This document shows, one piece after another, positions 457-52,725 of a stretch of DNA of 64,000 nt. The DNA is taken from assembly GCA_019775845.1 (NCBI GenBank), contig JADQAV010000031.1, positions 270,792 to 334,791 on the forward strand, read 5' to 3'. The notes below the pieces were generated by a model that was given only the letters and a program-made list of their open reading frames with translations, ran no database searches and was not told the origin of the DNA. The position numbers and the translations under genes are program-made. This stretch comes from Myrmaecium sp. VS I D KN 1 (Eukaryota; Ascomycota; Dothideomycetes; Valsariales; Valsariaceae). Positions within the stretch are counted from its first letter, which is position 1; every line of letters begins with the position of its first letter.

Positions 457-853
457 ATGTCTTCCGTCCGCCTCTTCCGCCCGCTCGCCCGCGCTGTTCA
501 GCGCCAGCCTGCCGCCATTGCGCGCCCCGCCATGGCTGCCTTCATGAGCACTCGCCCCACCAAGATCGAGGTCCCCTCCATCCAGCAGGTCAAGGCCAAG
601 CAGGCGCCGAAGACCCAGCTTATGGACAAGCTGGTGCGTTAGCAGCCGATCTCCGGGACTCGTTGCGGAAGCTGATATTCGTTCCTAGAGCATCCTCCAA
701 GCCGGCATGCCCCAGCTCGTCCCCTTCTTCTGGGTCAACGAGGTCTCGTACGCTTTCGTCATCCTGCCGACCCTCATCTACCTCTGCTCCAAGTACTTCC
801 TCCCCCAGACCCTCCGTACCCGGATGGCCCGCCTTTTCATCAGCAAGCTATAA
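457..853 (+). CDS. ATP8: Nuclear-encoded mitochondrial ATP synthase subunit 8 with targeting presequence
   Basis: Exons are 457-633 and 689-853; the intron (634-688, 55 bases, GTGCGT...CCTAG) is phase 0. The product is 113 residues. Residues 1 to about 60 form a presequence rich in Arg, Ala and Ser without acidic residues near the N-terminus (starts MSSVRLFRPLARAVQRQ), as expected for mitochondrial import. The last 48 residues begin MPQLVPFF and end RLFISKL, the start and end typical of fungal Atp8, with one membrane segment between (about residues 76-96). Atp8 is a small Fo subunit of the peripheral stalk in the inner membrane. It is usually encoded in mtDNA. Here Trp is TGG rather than the mitochondrial TGA, codons are GC-rich, and a spliceosomal intron is present, so this is a working nuclear gene and not a recent mtDNA insertion. 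Whether mtDNA still has a copy cannot be seen. Confidence in identity is high. Confidence 0.9.
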
Positions 854-2195
854 ATGGGGATTGTTGATGGTAGGGGGAACGACGGCATTAGAGCGTTATG
901 GCTACGGTAGCTGGATCTCCATAGCGCGGCCTTTGTACAAATAATCAATTGGTTTCGCAATCCAACGAGTTCCCCAACCTGTTCAGGTACCGGCAAGAAC
1001 GGTGCTGCTGTCTTGCGATCAGAACACGACTCGATCCAAATTCCCGATCCTCTTCTTTGTTCTCCAATGTTGCTTGCCTCCTTGTTCCGGTCTAGGTAGC
1101 GGTCTCATGGTTGATCAGAGGGATCGATGCCGGTCCAACCGTAATTTTGCTTTAGCATGCAGACTCATGTGCTTGGCACGTTGGGACGATTCTTAAGCCG
1201 CACTCCCCAAATTTCAAGTATATGGCTATCACAGCTGACCCCGTGGATTAAACAATCCTCCAAGGCTTCATAGAGGCATTCATTCAGCCCAAATCACTTG
1301 CCAGCCTCTCTATCAATTGCTTAAACTGCTGCATCAGCAGGTACTCCTGTGTCTACATGGTTTTCTGGAATCCCATCGGAGCCTAGAGAATCACTTTAGT
1401 GCCATATACCGCGATAATCCACCCAGGTAGTCCTGCGAGAGGGTGATGGTGAAGACCACCCTATTCTTGGTGATTGCATTGGGCTTGGCCGCCGTGACCC
1501 ATTCGGTAGCGGACTGTACGGTGATGGAGCTCACAGGGAGTGATATACGAGAGGGGATGAACCCGAATGCTCCTGCTATATCCCGAGTTTGGCTGAGGAG
1601 CAGCACCTTCGCTTTCTGAGGTGTAGGGGTAACATGAGATGGAAGGATATTGAGATAAACCCTGTCTGTATTATCTCTTCTACTTTACTTTTACTCTTTT
1701 CATCGATTGGCAGGGTAAAGAAGTACTTTATACCCCAGAAATGCGTTTATATCGACGGCTGGCTCAAAGGAGCCGACCATTTGACCAGTCCTGAATACTT
1801 GAAAGTGTAGCCCGATGCGGCTTGCAGATAACTTATCATACAAGGCTGGTATCTCCAATCATAGGTATATTTTGTATTCCACACATATACTCTCGTAATC
1901 CCACGCAGCAGAACGAACAGCCAACGAACGTCGCTGGTCTTTGCGCGGCTGCTGGAACCGTAAGGCTACGCTTATATAGGAAATATGAATCATGAGTCAT
2001 GGTGTCGCATACCCCACTACTTCATGACTAGTATTCCCGGTCATGCCATTTGTCTTCTCTCATGAAGAATCGAAGGTTGCATTTCCTACAGCATCTCAAT
2101 AATCTTCTTGACCTTTTACTGAGACGAGGCCATCTATTCTTTACTTCTGCAAAAAGCTTGACCGGAGCGATAACCCGGCGCGCCGTGTGTGAATC
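854..2195. other. Intergenic, ATP8 to NmrA-like gene
   Basis: Only short frames without family features are present. It should contain the ATP8 3' end and the promoter of the reductase gene. Nothing else was recognised. Confidence 0.5.
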
Positions 2196-3308
2196 ATGAC
2201 GGTCACGCCATCCGGCAGAATTGCGACTGTCCTCATTATAGGAGTGCGTGCCTAGTGCTTCCTTCTCAGTCTATATCACGTTCAGTATTTGCCTTGCGTA
2301 GAACCAGAACCTGACTGACAGAGTCAGAATGACGTCCTTTCCCACTCCATTGTGCGGGCGCTTTCTGCGCAACCCGCTCAGTATGACATTATCATATTAA
2401 CCCAGCCATACCAAAGCTCAACTACGTCTACCAGTCAAGCCAAGCATATCACCTCGGACTTCTCACCTGCATCCCTTCGCGCGGCATTCTCGACGCACAA
2501 GCCTGACTTGGTCGTCAGCACCACGCATGGTGGTGACTATGACCTACAAATACGGATCATCAGTGCAGCCGTAGCATCTGGCGTCAAGCGCTTCATTCCG
2601 CATGAGTTCGGCCATGATACTCTCAATCCAGGCGTGCAGGAGCGCTTGCCGCCTAGCAAAGAGCGAGCGCGAGTACTTCGCTACCTTAAAGCTATGCAGA
2701 AGGACGGCACTATCTCCGCCACTGAGAAAGGTACAGACGAACATGTGGATGTGAAGCATGCACCTGGGTACGACGCGCCGTTCGAGTGGACTGGGATCGC
2801 GTGCGGCTGCTTGCTCGATGCTGGGCTGATTGATGGATCGCTTGGCTTTGACATCAAGTGGAACAGTGCGACGATCCACGGAGCAGGGACGGAGCAGTTT
2901 GCGGCATCAAGTTCGATCAGAGTCGGAGAGGTGGTCAGGAAGGTGATCGAGCATTGGGATGAAGTCAAGGACCAGTATCTATACGCCCACGGTTGCATCA
3001 CATCGGCAAACCAAGTGCTCCGTGCCTTGGAGAAGAGCACCGGCAAGACGTGGGAGGCTGGGCGGACAAGCGTGCAGGAGTGCTTGAGTGAGGCACGCAA
3101 AAGTTCCCAAAGAGGCTTTCGCAGCGCGGCAGCGGTGTTGTTTGAACGGAGTGTGCTCTACGACGAGGACGTTGCAGATGTGAAGGCGTTTAAGAATAGT
3201 TCTCACAACGAGCTTCTTGGGTTGGAGAAGGAAAGGGTCCTAGACATCGTAGTTCAGGCGGTGCATGACTTCAACCACTTGGGAAAGCCGGATTGCGGGT
3301 GCGCATAG
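2196..3308 (+). CDS. NmrA-like / isoflavone-reductase-family NAD(P)-binding protein
   Basis: Exons are 2196-2243 and 2322-3308; the intron (2244-2321) is phase 0 and interrupts the nucleotide-binding loop, whose N-terminal strand reads IATVLIIG and continues SQNDVLSHSIVRAL. The product is 344 residues. The motif RFIPHEFGHDT after the second half of the Rossmann fold is characteristic of the NmrA/PCBER/isoflavone reductase group of atypical short-chain dehydrogenases. Members are either NAD(P)H-dependent reductases of aromatic substrates or redox-sensing regulators. The C-terminal half carries the expected substrate-side segment (FEWTGIACGCLLDAGL). The substrate cannot be inferred: the gene stands alone with no secondary-metabolite genes nearby. 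The start was chosen because it supplies the missing first beta strand. Confidence 0.8.
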
Positions 3309-3681
3309 ACTGAGGAAGAGGAGTTTAAAGGATGATTTGAGACAATTGATGAGCTTCGAGTATGTATTATTCAATATTATGAGGGCCTGAACTCACATTC
3401 GGGGATGCGTGCGTCCAAGGGTGATCTGATGTGCAGCTTGATGCCTCGGGCCACTAAATCCGGGGCTTTGAGAGGATCCAGGTCGCCAAGCTCCGCCTCC
3501 GGGATGCTGAAGTCCGAATCTCCGTGCCGTGACTGAAATCGACCCCATCATTCAGTCAGCGCGGACAAGCCGTGAACGTGGACGTTTGCCATCTCCTCGC
3601 CGTCTGATGGTAGAGCCATTCTACCAATAAAACCCCTCCACTTCTTCCATCCACCTCCGCAGCCTCTTCCCTTCCTCTACG
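3309..3681. promoter_or_regulatory. Promoter/leader of the m-AAA protease gene
   Basis: The stretch separates the reductase stop from the protease start. A CCAAT pentamer lies at 3624-3628, about 55 bases before the ATG, followed by a C/T-rich leader. No gene was seen. Confidence 0.35.
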
Positions 3682-6321
3682 ATGATTCCCATCCTGCGCC
3701 GGTCAGGCCATATAACACGATTATCGAAGAGCGCCCTTGAGGCTACCTCCAGGCCTGCACTGCTCGCTAGAGGACCCGCGATAGCCCTTCGACATCGTTA
3801 CCTTCAACCGCATACCAGAGGCTACTCTAGCGCACCGCCGGAGGACTCGCAGTCATCGAAGGAAAGGAAAGATGGCCAACAGGACAAGGATCGCGCGGGG
3901 GGCAAGGAACCGATAAAGGACCAACGGAAGAAAGAGGATGGCAAGCCAAGTGGAAACCCCCGGCTCACGACGGAGGAGGCGCGGGCATTGGACGAGCTTG
4001 TGAGGATGGCTAAGGCCGAGATGCCTAGGTTCCTCACCAAGGATATCGAAGCTGTGTGCAACGAGATCAAAGAGCATGGTGTGCCGCCGGAGTTCATCGA
4101 GATTCGTGACATCATCAAAAAGTCCGAGGGCATCCTGGATGTAGCGACAGCCACGCGCCTTATCCGCCTGACACGAAAAGCTGCCTGGACCGTTGCTGAG
4201 AAGATGGCGGAGGACGAAAAAGCGGACTCATCAAGTCCGCAACAGAAAGCAGGCGCCCATGATCCGGGCCCTGGGAAGGAGGGCGATGGCAAATCCAAGA
4301 AGAGTAAAAGCAAGGGCTCCTCGAACATGCCGGAATTCCCGCAAATGGACCTCACGATGTTGATCCTCTCCTTGTTGACTTTCTACTCGCTTTGGCGTTT
4401 GCTCAACCCGGGACAGGAATCTAGGGAGATCACTTTCCAGGAGTTCCGATCGAAGTTCCTGGACAAGGGCTTGGTGGAAAAGATTGTGGTTCTCAACCAG
4501 TCCAGGGCACGCGTCTATCTACACCGCGATGCTGTGGCATCCATGTATCCGGATTCGCCCGCTGCTAACGGCAGTTTCTACTACTACTTCACAATTGGTT
4601 CTGTTGAGTCATTCGAACGGAGATTGGACGACGCCCAAAACGAACTAGGTATCCCGTCTTCTCAACGGATACCTGTCTCCTACCAGAACGAAATATCCTG
4701 GTTCGCCACCATACTCTCTTTCGGCCCTACCCTTCTGTTCATTGGTGCTATCTTCTGGCTTTCGAGACGAGCTGCAGCAAGCGGAGGTGGTCAAAGTGGC
4801 ATCTTTGGTATGGGTCGCAGTCGCGCAAAGAAGTTCAACCACGAAACGGATATCAAGGTCAAGTTCTCGGACGTTGCTGGTATGGATGAGGCGAAGCTGG
4901 AGATCATGGAATTCGTCAGCTTCCTCAAGGAGCCAGATGTTTACCAGAAGTTGGGCGCTAAGATCCCACGAGGTGCCATTCTGTCCGGACCCCCGGGTAC
5001 GGGAAAGACGCTCCTTGCCAAGGCCACGGCCGGCGAGTCCGGTGTTCCGTTCTTCAGCGTGTCTGGTTCCGAATTCGTGGAGATGTTTGTTGGTGTAGGT
5101 CCTTCGAGAGTACGCGATCTTTTCGCCACTGCACGCAAGAATACCCCCTGTATCATCTTCATTGACGAGATCGATGCTATCGGAAAGTCGCGATCCAAGC
5201 AGAACTTCGGCGGCAACGACGAAAGAGAGAGCACCTTGAACCAGATTCTTACTGAGATGGACGGATTCAATACGACAGAGCAGGTTGTAGTCCTTGCCGG
5301 TACTAACCGACCGGATATCCTTGACAAAGCGCTCCTTCGCCCAGGTCGGTTTGATAGGCATATCTCCATTGACGCACCGACCATGGACGGAAGGAAACAA
5401 ATTTTTGCCGTTCACCTCAAGAAGATCGTCACTCACGAGGACATAGAATACCTGCAAGGACGACTTGCAGCTCTCACTCCCGGCTTCTCCGGTGCTGACA
5501 TCGCTAACTGTGTTAACGAAGCGGCACTCATCGCTGCCCGACACAAGGCCGATAGTGTTACCATGGAGCATTTTGAACAAGCTATCGAGCGGGTTATCGG
5601 TGGTCTGGAGAAGAAGTCGTTGGTCCTTTCGCCAGAGGAGAAGCGGACCGTCGCGTACCACGAAGCCGGGCATGCTATCTGCGGCTGGTACTTCAAGTAT
5701 GCGGACCCGCTTCTCAAGGTGTCTATCATTCCCCGTGGACAGGGTGCCCTGGGCTATGCCCAATACCTTCCAGCCGGCGACACGTATCTGATGAACGTTA
5801 ACCAGCTCATGGATCGAATGGCGATGACTCTGGGTGGACGAGTGTCGGAGGAGCTTCACTTCGATACCGTCACCTCTGGTGCTTCTGATGACTTCCGCAA
5901 GGTTACCAAGATGGCCAGCGCCATGGTGACCAAGTGGGGCATGACGAAGAAGATTGGCTTCGTCTATTACGAGGACGACAACGGGCAACAGATCCAGAAG
6001 CCGTTCTCGGAGGATACGGCCAAGAACATCGACCTCGAGGTCAAGCGTATCGTGGACGAGGCCTACAAGCAGTGCAAAGACCTGCTGACCGAAAAGAAGG
6101 CCGAGGTTGGCATCGTTGCCGAAGAGCTGCTGAAGAAGGAGATGCTGTCCCGGGACGACATGGTGAGACTCCTCGGCCCGCGACCGTTCGAGGAGAAGGG
6201 CGACTTCCACAAGTACTTCGGTAGCAAAGGAGACCGGGAAGGTTCCGATCAAGGCCTGGGACAGGAAGGGCCTTCGGGCAAGAAAGACAGCGGAGATGTG
6301 CCGCCTGCCCCGGCGATATGA
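3682..6321 (+). CDS. Mitochondrial m-AAA protease subunit (Yta12/Afg3 family)
   Basis: An intronless gene of 879 residues. The first ~50 residues are Arg/Ser/Ala-rich with no acidic residues before about residue 20, a mitochondrial presequence, followed by a charged low-complexity linker. Two membrane segments (about 225-242 and 342-362) flank an intermembrane-space domain. The AAA module has Walker A GPPGTGKT at 436-443, Walker B with D495 and E496, and the arginine-finger region ending RPGRFDRH. The metalloprotease signature HEAGH lies at 660-664. The family forms hexamers in the inner membrane with the active site facing the matrix, degrading unassembled respiratory and ATP-synthase subunits and maturing ribosomal protein bL32. 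Fungi have two paralogues and I cannot assign this one firmly to Yta10 or Yta12. All catalytic motifs are intact. Confidence 0.96.
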
Positions 6322-7039
6322 GTTACCTATGACCTTGGCCGCCGGAGGTGCCTGTCCTCTGTTTCCTTCGCTCAATCAAGGCGTGTGGATTCCTTTGATC
6401 GACATACGTTCGCAAAGCATTTAGGGGGGGTTTTATTTATACGTTTTCCCGGTGCTGCAGTAGCTCCTTATTCCTTTCTTCTATATCTCGCGTCTTGCAT
6501 TCTCCTTTTTTTGTTCCATCAACCTCCACTCCCGAAAGAGGACCACTTTTGAGCCCCCTTTCCCCCTGCAAAAGGGATCAGGGGCGGATAAACATATAGA
6601 TACGACGTGTGTAGTAGTGTAGTATAGGACTTCGATGTTATGTATTTATAAGTCACTGTTCATGCCTGCTGCCGTGCGTCTGCTCGTGACCCGTTGCCGC
6701 CACCATACGGACGAATGAATATACTATCTGCAGAGCGTATTCCAGTCCCGCACGGTTGAGCACGACGTTTTTGCTATGCATAAGTCAGATTGATTCGTAA
6801 CAAGAGCACATGGCTGCATGTCTAGCTTAACCGCTACAGATAGAAGAGATCTTCAATATATACAAAAGACGAGCGAGGCGCATAGCCCCTCGCATCTTTA
6901 TATGTTGACAGGATCGGACCAAAACCCCACATAAGCGCCTTTTTGGTGGAATACAACCCCGTGACGCCGGAGAATAGGGGGTTCGTCAGCTGCCCTAATC
7001 GTACATAGAACAAGTCATTCCTACATAGCAGTCCTCCGA
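6322..7039. other. Convergent 3' ends of m-AAA protease gene and SLS1
   Basis: Both neighbouring genes end here. The stretch contains T-rich runs and no gene-like frame, consistent with two 3' UTRs and polyadenylation regions. Confidence 0.5.
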
Positions 7040-9810
7040 TCACCGTATTTGCACTCCTTCCAGCACGTCCAGGAGGCCCCATGCCCGCTTGACCAGGGCC
7101 TGTCTTTGCTCCTTCCGCTGCTTCAACGCGGCGCGTGGCTTCAGACCTGGCTGGGTGTCGCCGTCGCCCAGGACGATGACCTCCATGGCCCGACTGCCCA
7201 AGCTGCCCTCCTCCAGGCCGCGGACGACGACCCTGGCCTCGCCCGGGGCGCCGCCGAGGTCCGGCAGGTGGAACTGGACGTCCTGCTTGCCGCGGACACC
7301 GCTGAACTCGTATGTGACCAGCTCTTCGTGCGCGCGCTCCCACTGCGAACCGGCCAGGGCGGCGGGCTTGGGCGCGCCGCTGCTGAGCCGGATGACGGGC
7401 TTGGGGATCTTGAGGTCGATGAAGCGGGGCGCGCGGAGGCGGCCTTTCTTCGAGATGGTTTGCTGGATCGCGCCGACGTACTCGTCGATCTGGGGATGGG
7501 CGCCGGTGGTCAGGGTGGCGGCAGGCGAATGGAGGGTTTTGACCTCGTTGAACATGATGTCCGCCACCTTCTCGGGAAGCAGAGCGTAGGCAGTCCGCGT
7601 TTTGTAGTAGAGTGTCATTCCCGCGAATGAGAGATTACCGTCGCCGCCCTCCGGGACCGCGAAGTCCATGGAAATCTGTGGAAAGATTGTGGGCGGCTGA
7701 TCACTCGTAAAAGGGGTAGCACGGAGCATGAACGATAGCGTCTGGGTCGTTGTCGGTGCCGAGGAAGCCATGTTGGATATGCGCGAAAGGAAAGCAGGGA
7801 GCCTTGGGACGTTGGCGCTGAAGCGCCAGTGCTGAGTGAAAGTCTTTGTTTGCGGGAGTCGGAACGACATGGTGTTCAGCCCTTCCAGAGTCGGTTGGAG
7901 GACATGTCCTAAACGAGCCGATTCCTCGCTGCGAGCGATGTACTGCCAGTACGAGTGACTCGGAGAAGTCTCCTCCCGTGCGATTTTCTCAAAAGAATTC
8001 CGATATAATGTTGAACCATCCAGAAAGCGGCAGGCTTCCGCCTGAAGTTTAGCTGAAACCGAATCTGGTTCTTCATTACGGTTTTTTTCAGGTGCACGTT
8101 CCGCGCGCGACGGGGAAGAGCTGATGTTCTCCAATCCATCGAAAGCATCCCTTTCCACCTGCTGTGTTTGGGGGTTAGAGGCACTTGGTGGCTCAAAGAA
8201 AGCCGAGTACTCCTCCGACTCCTCCTCTTCAGGGTTCGACTGTTTCCATCGAATTCGTTTGATGGGCAAGGTCCATCTGCCCATCGGTCGCTTGCGGTCT
8301 GCATGTCGTAAGCTCGGGGTGGGCCCTACAGGATGGAGGACCCCAAAGTGGGCAGTCTTCTCATCATCCAGTATTGCCACTGGCGTGCTATCGCTCGGCT
8401 GAGGAAGCATCGACATGAGGGCCCGCAGCGCGTCTTCCGAATCCTCCTTGTGCATACTGCGAATCCGGATCTGCTGTCATTAGCCCGCAGTCACTCCGCA
8501 GTCGTAGCGAGTGGATATTGCGACGAGCAAGATAACATACCTGCTGTTCCTTTTCATCTAAGTCAATAGACGCTCCGCTTAGTTCGGACGCTGTGAGAAT
8601 GTCGCTCTCATCCCACGGCAAGTTTGCAGATTTCCTTCCGGTCATTTCATTAGGATTGTTCCCCATGAGCTTCCAGAAGGGTGCAAGTTTTATGTCCATC
8701 GCCGCAGATTCTTGTATGGCGCCCACAATATCCTTCACGGCGTATTCAGCTTTGCTTTTACTGGCACGGATGCGAATGGTCTTCTTGGGCCACGTAACTT
8801 CAATATCAACCTTCCGATCTCGCCCAATATTGTTTAGGATGGAGTTCGAGCCTGCATCCAGTCCATTAACATCCACACAAAGACGCGAAGGCGGAATACT
8901 CACGACCACTGTGCAGCCATCTCATTTGCCAATCCGTAAGTTGTAGTTCGAGCTCCCCGGGGCTCTCTACTTCTTCTTGAATTTCTACACCCCACACTCT
9001 CCTCAGTATGCACTCGATGAGGTGTCGTTTCCCTGACCTCGCCCCGATTACAGCGCCCCGGAGCGGAGCGACGGGAGCAAGTTTCTGACGGACCGGCGTT
9101 GACCCCGGCCTCCAGCCGCTCGTGCTAATCCCAAGGTCGGCATTCACATCCACAAGGATAGGACCGACCTCTCCCCCAACTTGGCCTCCCTGTGTTTGGA
9201 TATATTGTTTTAGCTGGGAACTCGTGAAACCTCTCTCCAGCGTCTTTCCCAAGCTCGCATACTCCTTCCGGTCCAGCAATGGCCGCTTGCCGTTCGGGTC
9301 AGTTTTCGGTCTGCAATTCTCAATCTGCCGAAATACTTCCAACTCCTTTGGGGTCCGCTTCTCGCTCGTAAGAGCCTCAAGAAGGTCATCTTCCGTTGGA
9401 GCTTTTCGGTCATTGCTGCGAGGAATGGCGGAGACGGGCTGCTTTGGCTTCACCCATTCCTGTGTTTCGCGGAGGACCAAGACCTCTGCGGGCTTTCCCA
9501 AGACCCCCCGCCCGAGAGGTTCGCCTGTGGCAAGGAGCCGCTGCCCAGCTGCACCGGTGACCCGCGGGCCTCTCAAGATCCGTTTCCGCGTCACCTTCGG
9601 GGCCGCTTCTATCGGCAGATCGGCAGTTTCTGCATACTTGTCCGGCCCTGTGTCTGAAGAGTCTGGGAAGGAAGCGAAAGAAAGTGATCTGGCGCAAGGC
9701 GAAGAACCGAAGGACGGCGAAATTCGAGCGTTGTTACGGCGCGAGAGAGAAAGACGTACACGGCAGCGGAGACATACTGATGCTCCAACTGATGTACGGG
9801 TTACAAGCAT
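7040..9810 (-). CDS. SLS1: Mitochondrial inner-membrane regulator Sls1
   Basis: Exons on the minus strand are 9810-8904, 8851-8541 and 8473-7040 (introns of 52 and 67 bases, phases 1 and 0); the product is 883 residues. The N-terminus (MLVTRTSVGASVCLRCRVRL) is a basic mitochondrial presequence. The middle part across the first splice (SILNNIGRDRKVDIEVTWPKKTIRIRA) resembles the KH-like RNA-binding region of the Sls1 family, and the C-terminal beta-rich part is family-typical. In yeast Sls1 is an inner-membrane matrix-side protein that couples mitochondrial RNA polymerase and transcripts to translation. Identity rests on overall pattern rather than one catalytic motif. The gene faces away from BBP across an AT-rich island. 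Confidence 0.82.
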
Positions 9811-13311: not shown

Positions 13312-16299
13312 TTAGTATGCACGCATGCGGATCAAGACTGTAAGGACACCGGAAAATGCCAGCGCCCCTATCAATGCAAGATAGGAAGAAAACTCACCTA
13401 AAACCCAACCGATACCCGACGCCAACCCCCCCGTAACCGCACTCGCCACAAGATCGCGTTTCCGCGGTCTTCCCTCATGGTCATGCACAGAATCCAAGTG
13501 CTCATCATGACCATCAGCACCAGAGCGCGTGCGCGCATGACCAGGCTCAGCGCCGATGTGCGTCGCTTCGCCGCGGAGCGGGAATGCAGACCGACTGAAC
13601 GCGGCGGCGGCGCCGCGGGCGACGTCGAAGAGGCCCATGGGGGTTTCCTCCATGGCGCCGCGGGCGGGCGCGCGGCGCGGCTGCTGCGGGCGCAGGACCG
13701 GTTCGATTTCGCCGGGCATGCGGCGGTCCAGGTGTGCGTCGAAGCGGTCTTCTTCTGCCTGTTCGTGGGCGAGCATGGTGTTGAGCTCGTGCTCGCAGTC
13801 TTGCCAGACGGCTAGGATCTCTGGGAGCGCTTCGGGCGGGGCTAGGAGGAGGGCTTGGGAGAGGAGCTCCATGCGTTGTTCTAGGCGACGGAGGGCTTTG
13901 ACGTCGGTGGAGCTGGTGTGCGTTTTGGACGATGCTGAAGAGGTGCCGTGTCGGCCGGCTGAGAATGCAGCGCGCCACAGGACGTCGTCGCTGGTGCCCG
14001 GAGCAGTAGAGGAGTGCTCTTGATGGTGTCCTGGTAGGGATGACGGATGAAGGCGGTTGACAACATAAGAATACGCCGTCTCGAAGTCATCTTCGTTGAG
14101 CGCAGCCTCGATAGCCATGCCTATCACACGTCGCTCAGCGGCATCCTTCCGTTGATCCAGATCACTAGGCGGTATTTCCACAATGGGTTCATCTTCAAGG
14201 CGCTTGTTCAGTTCAACAGCTCCAGCAACAACAAGATTCCGTCCTACTCCGATCAGATCATCAAGGTGGGCGTAACTCCCCGGGTTCTGATCCAGGACTC
14301 TCTTGAGCAGGCTGATCGGGTCCGTACTGACACGGATGTTGACCGGCTGAAAGGGTACGCCGTGCTGGAGCTTCAGGGAGTAGAATGAGAGCGAGTGCGT
14401 TGCTGCCAGCAGGGCTTTGCATTGGACGAAGGACGGAGACGAACCGAAGTATGGCTCAAAAGCAGTCAGTCTATATGAAATGTTAGTCGGCTGCAGTTCA
14501 GCAAGGACTCGGAACAGCTAACATATCGGAGGCCTTCTTCATCCCGCCTCGTGTCTTATTACCGTTGCTAGCATTGTCGTAATTATGTAATATAGCGGAT
14601 AAGACGACCTTTTCTGCATCATGCTTAGACAATCTTTGGCGTTCCGGGGAGTTCTTGAAGAGAATATCAATGGCAAGGGAATAGCCTGCAAAGTAACGTT
14701 ACTAAGAGCCCATATACGAATCCTAGTTCGATCAAGCTCAGACTTACATCCGCTTGCTATGAAGGCTTTAGCGATCTCAGTCGCGAGTTGCGATCTTCCG
14801 ATCTTGCCCAGGACGCCAGGCCCTTGCTCAGCGAGGTCATCGTCGCTATCCATTCCCCAATTCCATAACCAGAGGAGTCTGCGCTGAACCAGGGCCCACT
14901 GAAGCTCATCCATTTTGGGACCGTGAACCAAGCCATGTAGCACCTTCTGGACCAGTTGCAACTGCTCTTCCTCGTCGCTCTGGAACCGCAGCTTTGCTGC
15001 GCTTGCCACAGAGATAGGATGGTGTAGGCTTGAGAGTAGATACGTAGAATACACAAACCTCTGCAAAAGGGAGAATGTCTCCAATTTGGGGGTGGTCAAA
15101 GGGTGCCCTGCCTGCAGGAGTGCCTCGGGTCGCAAGACGGCGGTCGAGGTCCCCTGTAACACAGAGGAATGAGAATCGATCCTCGGCAGTAGTTCAATGC
15201 TCGTTGCTAGGTCTGGCGGAGGCTCGAAGTCCAGCAAATCCGCGAGTCGAACCAGGATCGAATGCGCGTTCTCCACAGCAGCTGCGCTATTGTCATTAAC
15301 CGCATATATTGAAGCAAACGCAGCTTGCGCGTATCGCTGTTTCAACTTCTCCTGCACTTCTTCTGTCAGGTGATGTCGAGCATCCGCATAGCCTCCTAAA
15401 TCAACGTCTCCGGGACCGTCCCACGCTTCCACGGCCGCGGCAACCAAAGTGAAATCATTGACGGCTCGCAACACCAGCCATTTGAAGAGGGAATCCCAGT
15501 CATGCTTGGCACGGTCATCCCTAAGACTGGCCTCTGCAGAACCATCAGCCTCCAACGCTTTGGCAGACACCGAGGGGCGCCGGTCTTTCCCTTCTGTGCT
15601 ATCGTGCCTGGACGATCCAGCATACGCATACATCCATGGCCCCACAACTCCCCTGATATCTCTTCCTATATTCAAATGTCCTTCGTGCTGAGGGTAAACC
15701 AGCAGGGTATCTATGGCAACCAATCCATGCAGCTTTTCGAACGATTCGAGGGTAGGTAATGTTGTGTGATTCGGGTAGTATTCATATTGCAGGCGGAGCA
15801 AGGGGAGAACGATGGAGATGAACCACGTCTTCAGAAACTCCGATCGGTCTAGGAAAGGGACGACGAGAGACGGTACGAGATCGAGGAGGCGGGTCTGCGT
15901 GTCGATTTGGTAGGATCGGTGAATGAGGAACGCCGTCAGGAGATCGAGAGATTGGCCGGCCGGGCACGAGTGGTGAACAAGCGGGAGCAGTCGTAGTTTC
16001 TGAGCACGCCTGCTTGCCTGGGCGTTGGTGAGCTCCGACACGAATGAGAGGTCCAGCGCTGGTTCATCGCGTTGCTCGAGATACAAGCTCGTTGCGGCTT
16101 CAAGCGCATACGTGGAGTAAACAGACGGCTCGAGGGTTTCGGGGAGGTATGTGAGGAGGATTCGCAGTATCTGTTCGGGCTTGAACGCGTCTGGACGGGC
16201 GAGTGTCAGGGCCCGCAAAGAATCTATGTTGGACTCGGTGGCATAGTGGGCGGCGAGCAGTGTGCAGTGCGCGGGAGAGATCGTCGTGATTGCAGCCAT
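13312..16299 (-). CDS. SEC39: Sec39 domain protein of the Dsl1 tethering complex
   Basis: Exons (minus) are 16299-14748, 14685-14523, 14470-13398 and 13337-13312; the product is 937 residues. Family-typical stretches are the N-terminal SPAHCTLLAAHYATESNID, KHDWDSLFKWLVLRAVNDF, the segment across intron 1 (CYSLAIDILFKNSPERQRL) and the C-terminal HLDDLIGVGRNLVVAG. The protein is predicted all-helical. Sec39 is part of the ER-bound Dsl1 complex that tethers Golgi-derived COPI vesicles for retrograde transport. An in-frame ATG 36 bases upstream (16335) would add 12 residues; the inner start was chosen because MAAITTISPAHC fits the family better. The last intron (13338-13397, 60 bases, GTGAGT...ACAG) has no stop, so both spliced and retained forms stay open and end RMRAY. 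Confidence 0.9.
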
Positions 16300-51038: not shown

Positions 51039-52725
51039 CTAATCCTTCCAATCCCACACCTGGCGCAGAAAGCGTTCCATATTCACCTTCTTGGCCTTCA
51101 TCTCCACCATCCAGGGGTGTTCCAGCATGCGCCACGGCGTCGCGCGGCGGGGGGGTTCTTTTTCCAGGCTATTCGGCGGGAAGCGGGGGAGGTAATCGTC
51201 AGTCAAAGATTCAAAAAAGGCCAACGCGGAAACGCATACAGCGAGGAAAGAGGGAGAGAATAAGACGTACCAACACTCTATGAAATACTTAAAGTTCTCA
51301 CTCCAGCGGATGCCCGCCTCCGGCTCATCCCGGAGCTTCGGGATCGGCTGGCGCACGATGTACGTCAGCAAGTCGATCAAACCGGCGCGGGGGTTCATCT
51401 CGGTGCCGTCGGCGGGGAACGGGAAGCGGTGCTGCGCCACCTCGAGCAGCGTGACCCCCAAGCTCCACACGTCGCTCGTGATCGTGTAGCTCTGGCCGGT
51501 GATGCGCTCCGGGGCCATGTAGTACGACGTCCCGATGAACGTGTTCGCGTCCCCCTTCGTCCCGAACTCGCCCGACACCCCGAAGTCGCACAGCTTCACC
51601 TGCCCGTTCCGGCACAGCAGGATGTTGCTCGGCTTGATGTCCCGGTGGATGATCCGGTGCGAGTGCAGGTACGTCAGCCCGTTCAGCACCCCCTCCGCCA
51701 CCTTGCCCAGCACCTTCTCCCCCGTCCGGCCCCCCAGCTTCTTGACCTCCCGGTAGACCGAGTCGAGCGAGCCGCCCTCGCAGAACTCCATCGCGATCGA
51801 GATGGTGCCGGTGGAGTCGTCCATGAAGGCGCCGTAGTATCGGCAGATGTGATTCGAGGCGCAATTCTTGTTGAACTGGAGCTCGCGGACGATCTGCTTC
51901 TTGACGTCGGGGTCGGGGTTGGTCGTGATGATCTGAAGGCGGGATCAGCGTCAAGGAGTTTTGATATAGAGATAAGATTGCACATACTTTCAATGCAAAC
52001 ACCGTCTTCCCCCCTTTCAGTATGCACCGCGTGACCGCTCCGCCCGCTCCTTCACCCAAGCTGCCCAGCTGCACGATCATGTTCTTCGCGCTCGCCGCCT
52101 TCCACCCGGCATCGTCCAGGTCCTCCACGTCGAGCTCGCGGCCCTTCTCCAGACTCAGCTTCTCCAAGTCCGGCAGGATGCCCATGCTGTTCTCTCGCTG
52201 CATGGCCTCGCCGCCTTCGCTCGAGATCGCCGAGATCGGGTCGGAGCCGCCGGGCCGGCCCTGCAGGATGGACAGGTTGAGCGCGCCGTAGGACGACGCC
52301 GCGGACGTCGACTCGGCCGCGCCGTCGCCGAAGCTGCCCGCGCGGGAGTGTGCACTGGCGTCGGACGATCCACCGGCCGACCGGCCGGTGCCCGGGATCT
52401 GAAGCGGGGCGATCTGCGGTAGCCGCGGCCGACCCTCCTGCGGTGTGTGGTTGCTGCCCATCGGCGTGGCGAGCCGGAGCTGCGGCGGTTGTGGCCGTGA
52501 CATTTGTGGTACGTGTTGCGGCTCGCTCGTGCCATTGACGACGGGTCGGACGTTGGGGGAGGGAGGGATGGACAGGCCGAGGCGAGGGGGACGGTTCCCG
52601 CTGCGGTTGGCGCCGGGGATCGGTGGTCGAAGAAGCGGTGCGGGGGCGGACATGTTGACGGCAGGCAGTGGTTGCGGAGGGTGAGGAGCGGAGGTGGGTT
52701 GCTGATAAGGAGGTTGTTCGGCCAC
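51039..52725 (-). CDS. MAP kinase kinase of the cell-wall-integrity pathway (Mkk1/MkkA type)
   Basis: Exons (minus) are 52725-51988, 51932-51271 and 51168-51039 (introns 55 and 102 bases); the product is 509 residues. A Pro/Ser-rich regulatory N-terminus (1-215) precedes the kinase domain: glycine loop [11 protein letters not shown] from 221, catalytic Lys246 in [15 protein letters not shown] catalytic loop, [20 protein letters not shown] activation segment, [10 protein letters not shown], and C-terminal [20 protein letters not shown]. The activation segment and ending are those of fungal Mkk1/Mkk2, which sit between Bck1 and the Slt2/MpkA MAP kinase and respond to wall stress. All catalytic residues are present. 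The surface-sensor-like gene at 45152 is a distant neighbour and may be coincidence. Confidence 0.95.

Follow-up and report, generated by a model that had tools for sequence, protein, structure and literature searches.

A probable nuclear-relocated ATP8 gene with a predicted intron and a putative mitochondrial targeting sequence in Myrmaecium sp. VS I D KN 1

The stretch of 64,000 nucleotides analysed here (the window) carries, close to its start, a two-exon gene that is very probably a nuclear-encoded ATP8, acquired by endosymbiotic gene transfer and replacing a copy lost from the mitochondrial DNA (mtDNA). ATP8 is mitochondrially encoded in most fungi, and the window gene is likely to be the functional replacement of the mitochondrial one. 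This interpretation had been put forward in a sequence-only reading of the DNA. The nuclear location, the standard code, the intron, the presequence-like N-terminus and the intact Atp8 part speak for it; the accompanying idea of a 48-residue mature form does not hold up well. The coordinates given in that reading are correct. The two exons, separated by a predicted GT..AG intron, translate to 113 residues:

457–853, + strand: two-exon gene, 113-residue product (window translation)
457–633, + strand: exon 1, 59 codons (residues 1–59), presequence-like to about residue 35, followed by a lysine-containing linker
634–688, + strand: predicted spliceosomal intron, 55 bases, GTGCGT...CTGAT...TAG
689–853, + strand: exon 2, 54 codons plus TAA, a SILQAG linker followed by the full 48-residue Atp8
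707–853, + strand: ancestral Atp8 unit, from MPQL to SKL plus the stop, with a transmembrane helix and a C-terminal helix

Residues 66–113 match the PF05933 profile from end to end (positions 1–48 of 48; E 6.6e-21; 74.7 bits against a curated cut-off of 26.1), placing the product in this family. They also match yeast Atp8 over the full 48 residues, 26 of which are identical (E 4.2e-11). With a similarity far beyond chance, residues 66–113 constitute a full-length fungal ATP synthase subunit 8, and the claim that the final 48 codons encode a full Atp8 is borne out. The MPQL motif and two helices have been described for yeast Atp8 (excerpt of PMC5893901); the motif, the transmembrane helix and the C-terminal helix are all found in the exon 2 product by alignments and models. 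The AlphaFold2 model of exon 2 built from the single sequence has helices at 10–37 and 41–53 (mean pLDDT 74.5, pTM 0.39), and the model built from nine sequences has one helix at 10–53 (mean pLDDT 77.6, pTM 0.41). A Foldseek search of the PDB with the single-sequence 54-residue model returned no match at E ≤ 10, which tells little because the model is small and its pTM is 0.39.

For comparison, mtDNA-encoded relatives were gathered by one scan of genome contigs and two scans of viral contigs, giving six and two confirmed Atp8 loci, respectively (L001–L008). These loci are AT-rich (26–36% GC), with an atp8 GC3 of 0.06–0.27. Their atp8 is uninterrupted over the match and preceded by an open frame of only 3–28 codons, and all but L008 have an ORF for ATP synthase subunit a (atp6) no more than 1 kb downstream. 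Two downstream ORFs were tested in L008; one encodes a LAGLIDADG endonuclease and the other has no match. We infer that L001–L008 are mtDNA of fungi that was deposited as bacterial or viral. Residues 66–113 share 20–28 identities with each of the eight (L005 compared over 45 residues). Thirteen of the 14 positions that are invariant across the nine mtDNA-encoded Atp8 (yeast plus L001–L008), which are not known to be close kin of the window's fungus, are kept, the exception being L38, which is threonine. The window gene and the mtDNA-encoded genes specify the same 48-residue protein family, but L001–L008 differ from the window gene in their AT-rich third positions, uninterrupted match and short upstream frame. 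When the full 113-residue query was run against the viral contigs for nuclear homologues, 26 stretches matched the pattern and none was confirmed.

The database records of these loci deserve a remark. NZ_BMCE01000010.1 (L001), NZ_BMRP01000034.1 (L002), NZ_JACJRE010000084.1 (L005), NZ_BMQF01000085.1 (L006) and the MAG contigs L003 and L004 look like fungal mtDNA. They carry atp8 and atp6 and seem to be contaminants of the assemblies that contain them (Fictibacillus, Streptomyces, Tolypothrix and two MAGs). The IMG/VR contigs IMGVR_UViG_3300031938_000405 (L007) and IMGVR_UViG_3300030114_000526 (L008) each hold both a homing endonuclease ORF and an atp8 of fungal type, L007 with a piece of atp6 in addition, and resemble mtDNA, not virus.

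The 55-base intron is out of frame and contains in-frame stops, and the unspliced frame ends after 61 codons. Therefore, the gene requires splicing, in agreement with the earlier statement that the frame breaks without it. We enumerated splice pairs in 457–853 (donor GTNNGT or GTRAG, acceptor YAG, length 45–150); two pairs, 634–688 and 634–715, restore an open frame. Only 634–688 retains MPQ and has a CTRAY element near the acceptor, and 634–715 removes MPQ. The branch-like CTGAT begins 17 bases ahead of the 3' end of the intron. The GTGCGT donor, the CTGAT element and the TAG acceptor match the short introns of filamentous ascomycetes, and the intron's shortness and the gene content of the window both point to such a fungus.

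The gene has the characters of a nuclear gene, namely chromosomal neighbours, a predicted intron and the standard code. Tryptophan is encoded by TGG and GC3 reaches 0.90 in the Atp8 part, confirming the TGG and GC-rich codons reported before. Scored against the codons of six neighbouring ORFs, the Atp8 part has an adaptation index of 0.88 and exon 1 of 0.87. The same protein redrawn with local codon usage scores 0.71 (sd 0.05); with uniform synonymous codons it scores 0.54, with a maximum of 0.73 among 2000 draws. The six ORFs behind the index score 0.62–0.84, all below the Atp8 part, although these are bare ORFs rather than gene models and their scores may be lower for that reason. That the Atp8 part is closer to the locally preferred codons than any of the six neighbours speaks for a nuclear gene that is established and well expressed. 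Among the 59 ORFs listed in the window, 20 were submitted to Pfam and 16 gave a match, including the following:

2352–3308: NmrA-like domain
3682–6321: FtsH-like AAA protease domain, probably of the m-AAA type
7040–9810, opposite strand: SLS1 domain
SF1/BBP domain, a further neighbour in the window
within 13312–59456: Sec39, CoA transferase, F-box/LRR, FAA hydrolase, sugar transporter, Ku and Pal1 domains
51039–51824: protein kinase domain

The neighbourhood at 13312–59456 is an ordinary chromosomal stretch. ATP8, the FtsH-like AAA protease (3682–6321) and SLS1 (7040–9810) cluster within 457–9810; the three proteins are probably mitochondrial, and their proximity may be due to chance.

A recent, inert insertion of mtDNA (NUMT) that happens to be open would also account for homology to a usually mitochondrial gene, and this homology is all that favours it. 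It would, in contrast, be expected neither to show a GC3 of 0.90, against 0.06–0.27 in the eight mtDNA loci, nor to contain a predicted intron and an added N-terminus. Moreover, all mtDNA loci but one have atp6 within 1 kb of atp8 on its downstream side, yet no other trace of mtDNA was found in the window with the ORFs of the eight mtDNA-like loci, the sole probes used (476 ORFs, each 45 residues or longer). Seven of the 476 match, each over the Atp8 exon, with the alignment of L002 starting at 662 and taking in 27 bases of the intron; the Atp8 of L001 matched through an unfiltered query. On these grounds we reject this explanation, which we consider extremely improbable. In addition, blastn with the mtDNA loci yielded only two hits in the window, both by chance (E 0.55 and 0.16); neither Atp8 nor the presequence was found there a second time (remaining rows at E 0.16 or worse); and no RNA family reached its gathering threshold.

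A second alternative is that the nuclear gene is translated but redundant, the mtDNA still having a working atp8. Erysiphe necator is a precedent of a kind: a nuclear atp9 exists beside a transcribed, probably non-functional mitochondrial atp9 (excerpt of PMC8260586), indicating that two copies are able to coexist for a time. The conserved residues (13 of 14) and strongly preferred codons of the window gene nevertheless point to a gene under selection, and the published relatives with a nuclear atp8 lack the gene in their mtDNA, as far as the excerpts of PMC5626475 and PMC11881002 go. We therefore regard redundancy as unlikely, and retain a relocated gene that replaces a lost mtDNA copy as the preferred explanation.

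The 65 codons upstream of the Atp8 part were described earlier as holding a basic, acid-poor presequence. Indeed, residues 1–65 include 11 basic and 2 acidic residues, and residues 1–36 include 7 and 0, respectively. The highest helical moment of an 11-residue segment is at residues 5–15 and is reached by 0.38% of 5000 shuffles of residues 2–36; with 18-residue windows, the moment is reached in 1.24% of shuffles. Residues 1–36 can thus form an amphipathic helix, and their composition fits a putative mitochondrial targeting sequence. In the PDB, the search for a source of the presequence turned up nothing beyond two weak matches, both to a lipoprotein cytochrome c (E 0.1 and 0.43).

Taken as a relocated gene, the locus would be transcribed in the nucleus and its 55-base intron removed, and cytosolic ribosomes would produce a precursor of 113 residues. 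Guided through TOM/TIM23 by its basic, amphipathic N-terminus, this precursor would be cleaved by the matrix processing peptidase (MPP), most likely around residues 24–35. The Atp8 part would then enter the membrane so that its N-terminus points to the intermembrane space, while its C-terminal helix lies on the matrix side, where the peripheral stalk of the ATP synthase has its base.

The place of cleavage bears on the mature protein. The only arginines among the first 70 residues are at positions 5, 8, 12, 16, 23 and 33. As R33 is the last arginine ahead of the Atp8 part, classical arginine-based MPP sites of the R-2 or R-3 type end at residue 35 and none lies near residue 65. A 48-residue mature form, as proposed in the sequence-only reading, would need another protease. 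A cut at about residues 24–35 that leaves a linker, or a two-step trimming, is more likely than a 48-residue mature protein. Compatible with the relocated-gene explanation, and somewhat favoured by us in view of sites that stop at residue 35, is a mature protein that would either keep about 30 extra residues (about 35–65) or lose them to a second protease. Retention, on the other hand, would require a basic tail (four lysines against two acidic residues) to face the intermembrane space, which makes further trimming plausible. A broader proposal is that relocated Atp8 retains a permanent intermembrane-space N-terminal extension of about 30 residues, or undergoes a two-step maturation linked to transfer, with lower hydrophobicity as part of the same adaptation; we put this forward tentatively, as a possibility that on balance we doubt.

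Hydrophobicity was compared among ten Atp8 (window, yeast and the eight loci, L005 trimmed to 45 residues). The window Atp8 is the lowest of the ten in mean hydropathy (0.70 versus 0.91–1.47), in its best 19-residue window (1.42 versus 1.56–2.65) and over columns 13–32 (1.54 versus 1.62–2.65). L007, however, is less hydrophobic than the window Atp8 on the octanol scale (−7.26 versus −8.98) and in 13-residue windows (2.05 versus 2.10). Hence the mtDNA-encoded Atp8 of yeast and L001–L008 are more hydrophobic on most, not all, measures, and the loss in the window Atp8 is modest and scale-dependent. Proline at position 21 and threonine, threonine and arginine at positions 35, 38 and 39 are not seen there in the nine mtDNA-encoded copies. 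Observations that count against a relocated working gene include the threonine at the otherwise invariant L38, the two measures on which L007 is less hydrophobic, the absence of PDB matches by Foldseek and the mention of atp8 in the Macrophomina tree legend cited below.

Podospora anserina provides a parallel in nuclear Atp9, likewise a relocated membrane subunit of ATP synthase with a targeting sequence and reduced hydrophobicity, but a different subunit with two transmembrane segments (excerpt of PMC3420929). According to the same excerpt, yeast ATP8 functions from the nucleus when given a targeting sequence and adjusted to the nuclear code. As yeast Atp8 needed only these, lower hydrophobicity may help relocation but not be required. 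Atp8 does not pose a difficult case for relocation: it has one transmembrane segment, and the yeast gene could be relocated (PMC3420929, excerpt).

The window gene resembles known systems. In Stemphylium lycopersici, atp8 and atp9 are nuclear, N-terminally longer and equipped with predicted targeting peptides, and atp8 is absent from the mtDNA (PMC5626475, 2017, in part). By that published description, its nuclear atp8 (TW65_04673) is like the window gene in having an N-terminal extension over mitochondrial Atp8, with a targeting peptide predicted in S. lycopersici. Transfer of atp8 to the nucleus is also stated for Shiraia-like species (PMC11881002, 2025), a statement that comes without a gene structure in the excerpt. 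A review, as excerpted, repeats the S. lycopersici transfer and adds Pyrenophora tritici-repentis (PMC7272585), from whose mtDNA atp8 is reported absent in a paper that also retrieved the atp8 and atp9 genes of Mycosphaerella (excerpt of PMC5913888). Excerpts on further Pleosporales report mtDNAs without atp8 (PMC4366305, PMC7225605, PMC5722872 and PMC11167856). For Macrophomina (Botryosphaeriales), the gene list in the excerpt names only atp6 and atp9, but a tree legend nevertheless lists atp8 (PMC8451660). The missing atp8 in Pleosporales mtDNA and in this gene list speaks for the relocated-gene explanation. The gene is kept in seven selected mtDNAs of Mycosphaerellaceae (excerpt of PMC7999263), and a 2024 review, in the part available, counts atp8 among genes with fewer than six transfers (PMC10809612), so that functional transfers of it are rare.

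Judged by its sequence, the window gene is probably a real, working relocated ATP8 of this already published kind, and so another instance of a published pattern, not a new phenomenon. Natural transfers of atp8 in fungi can reveal which changes in targeting, hydrophobicity and processing are needed, and thereby have a bearing on the allotopic expression of mitochondrial genes.
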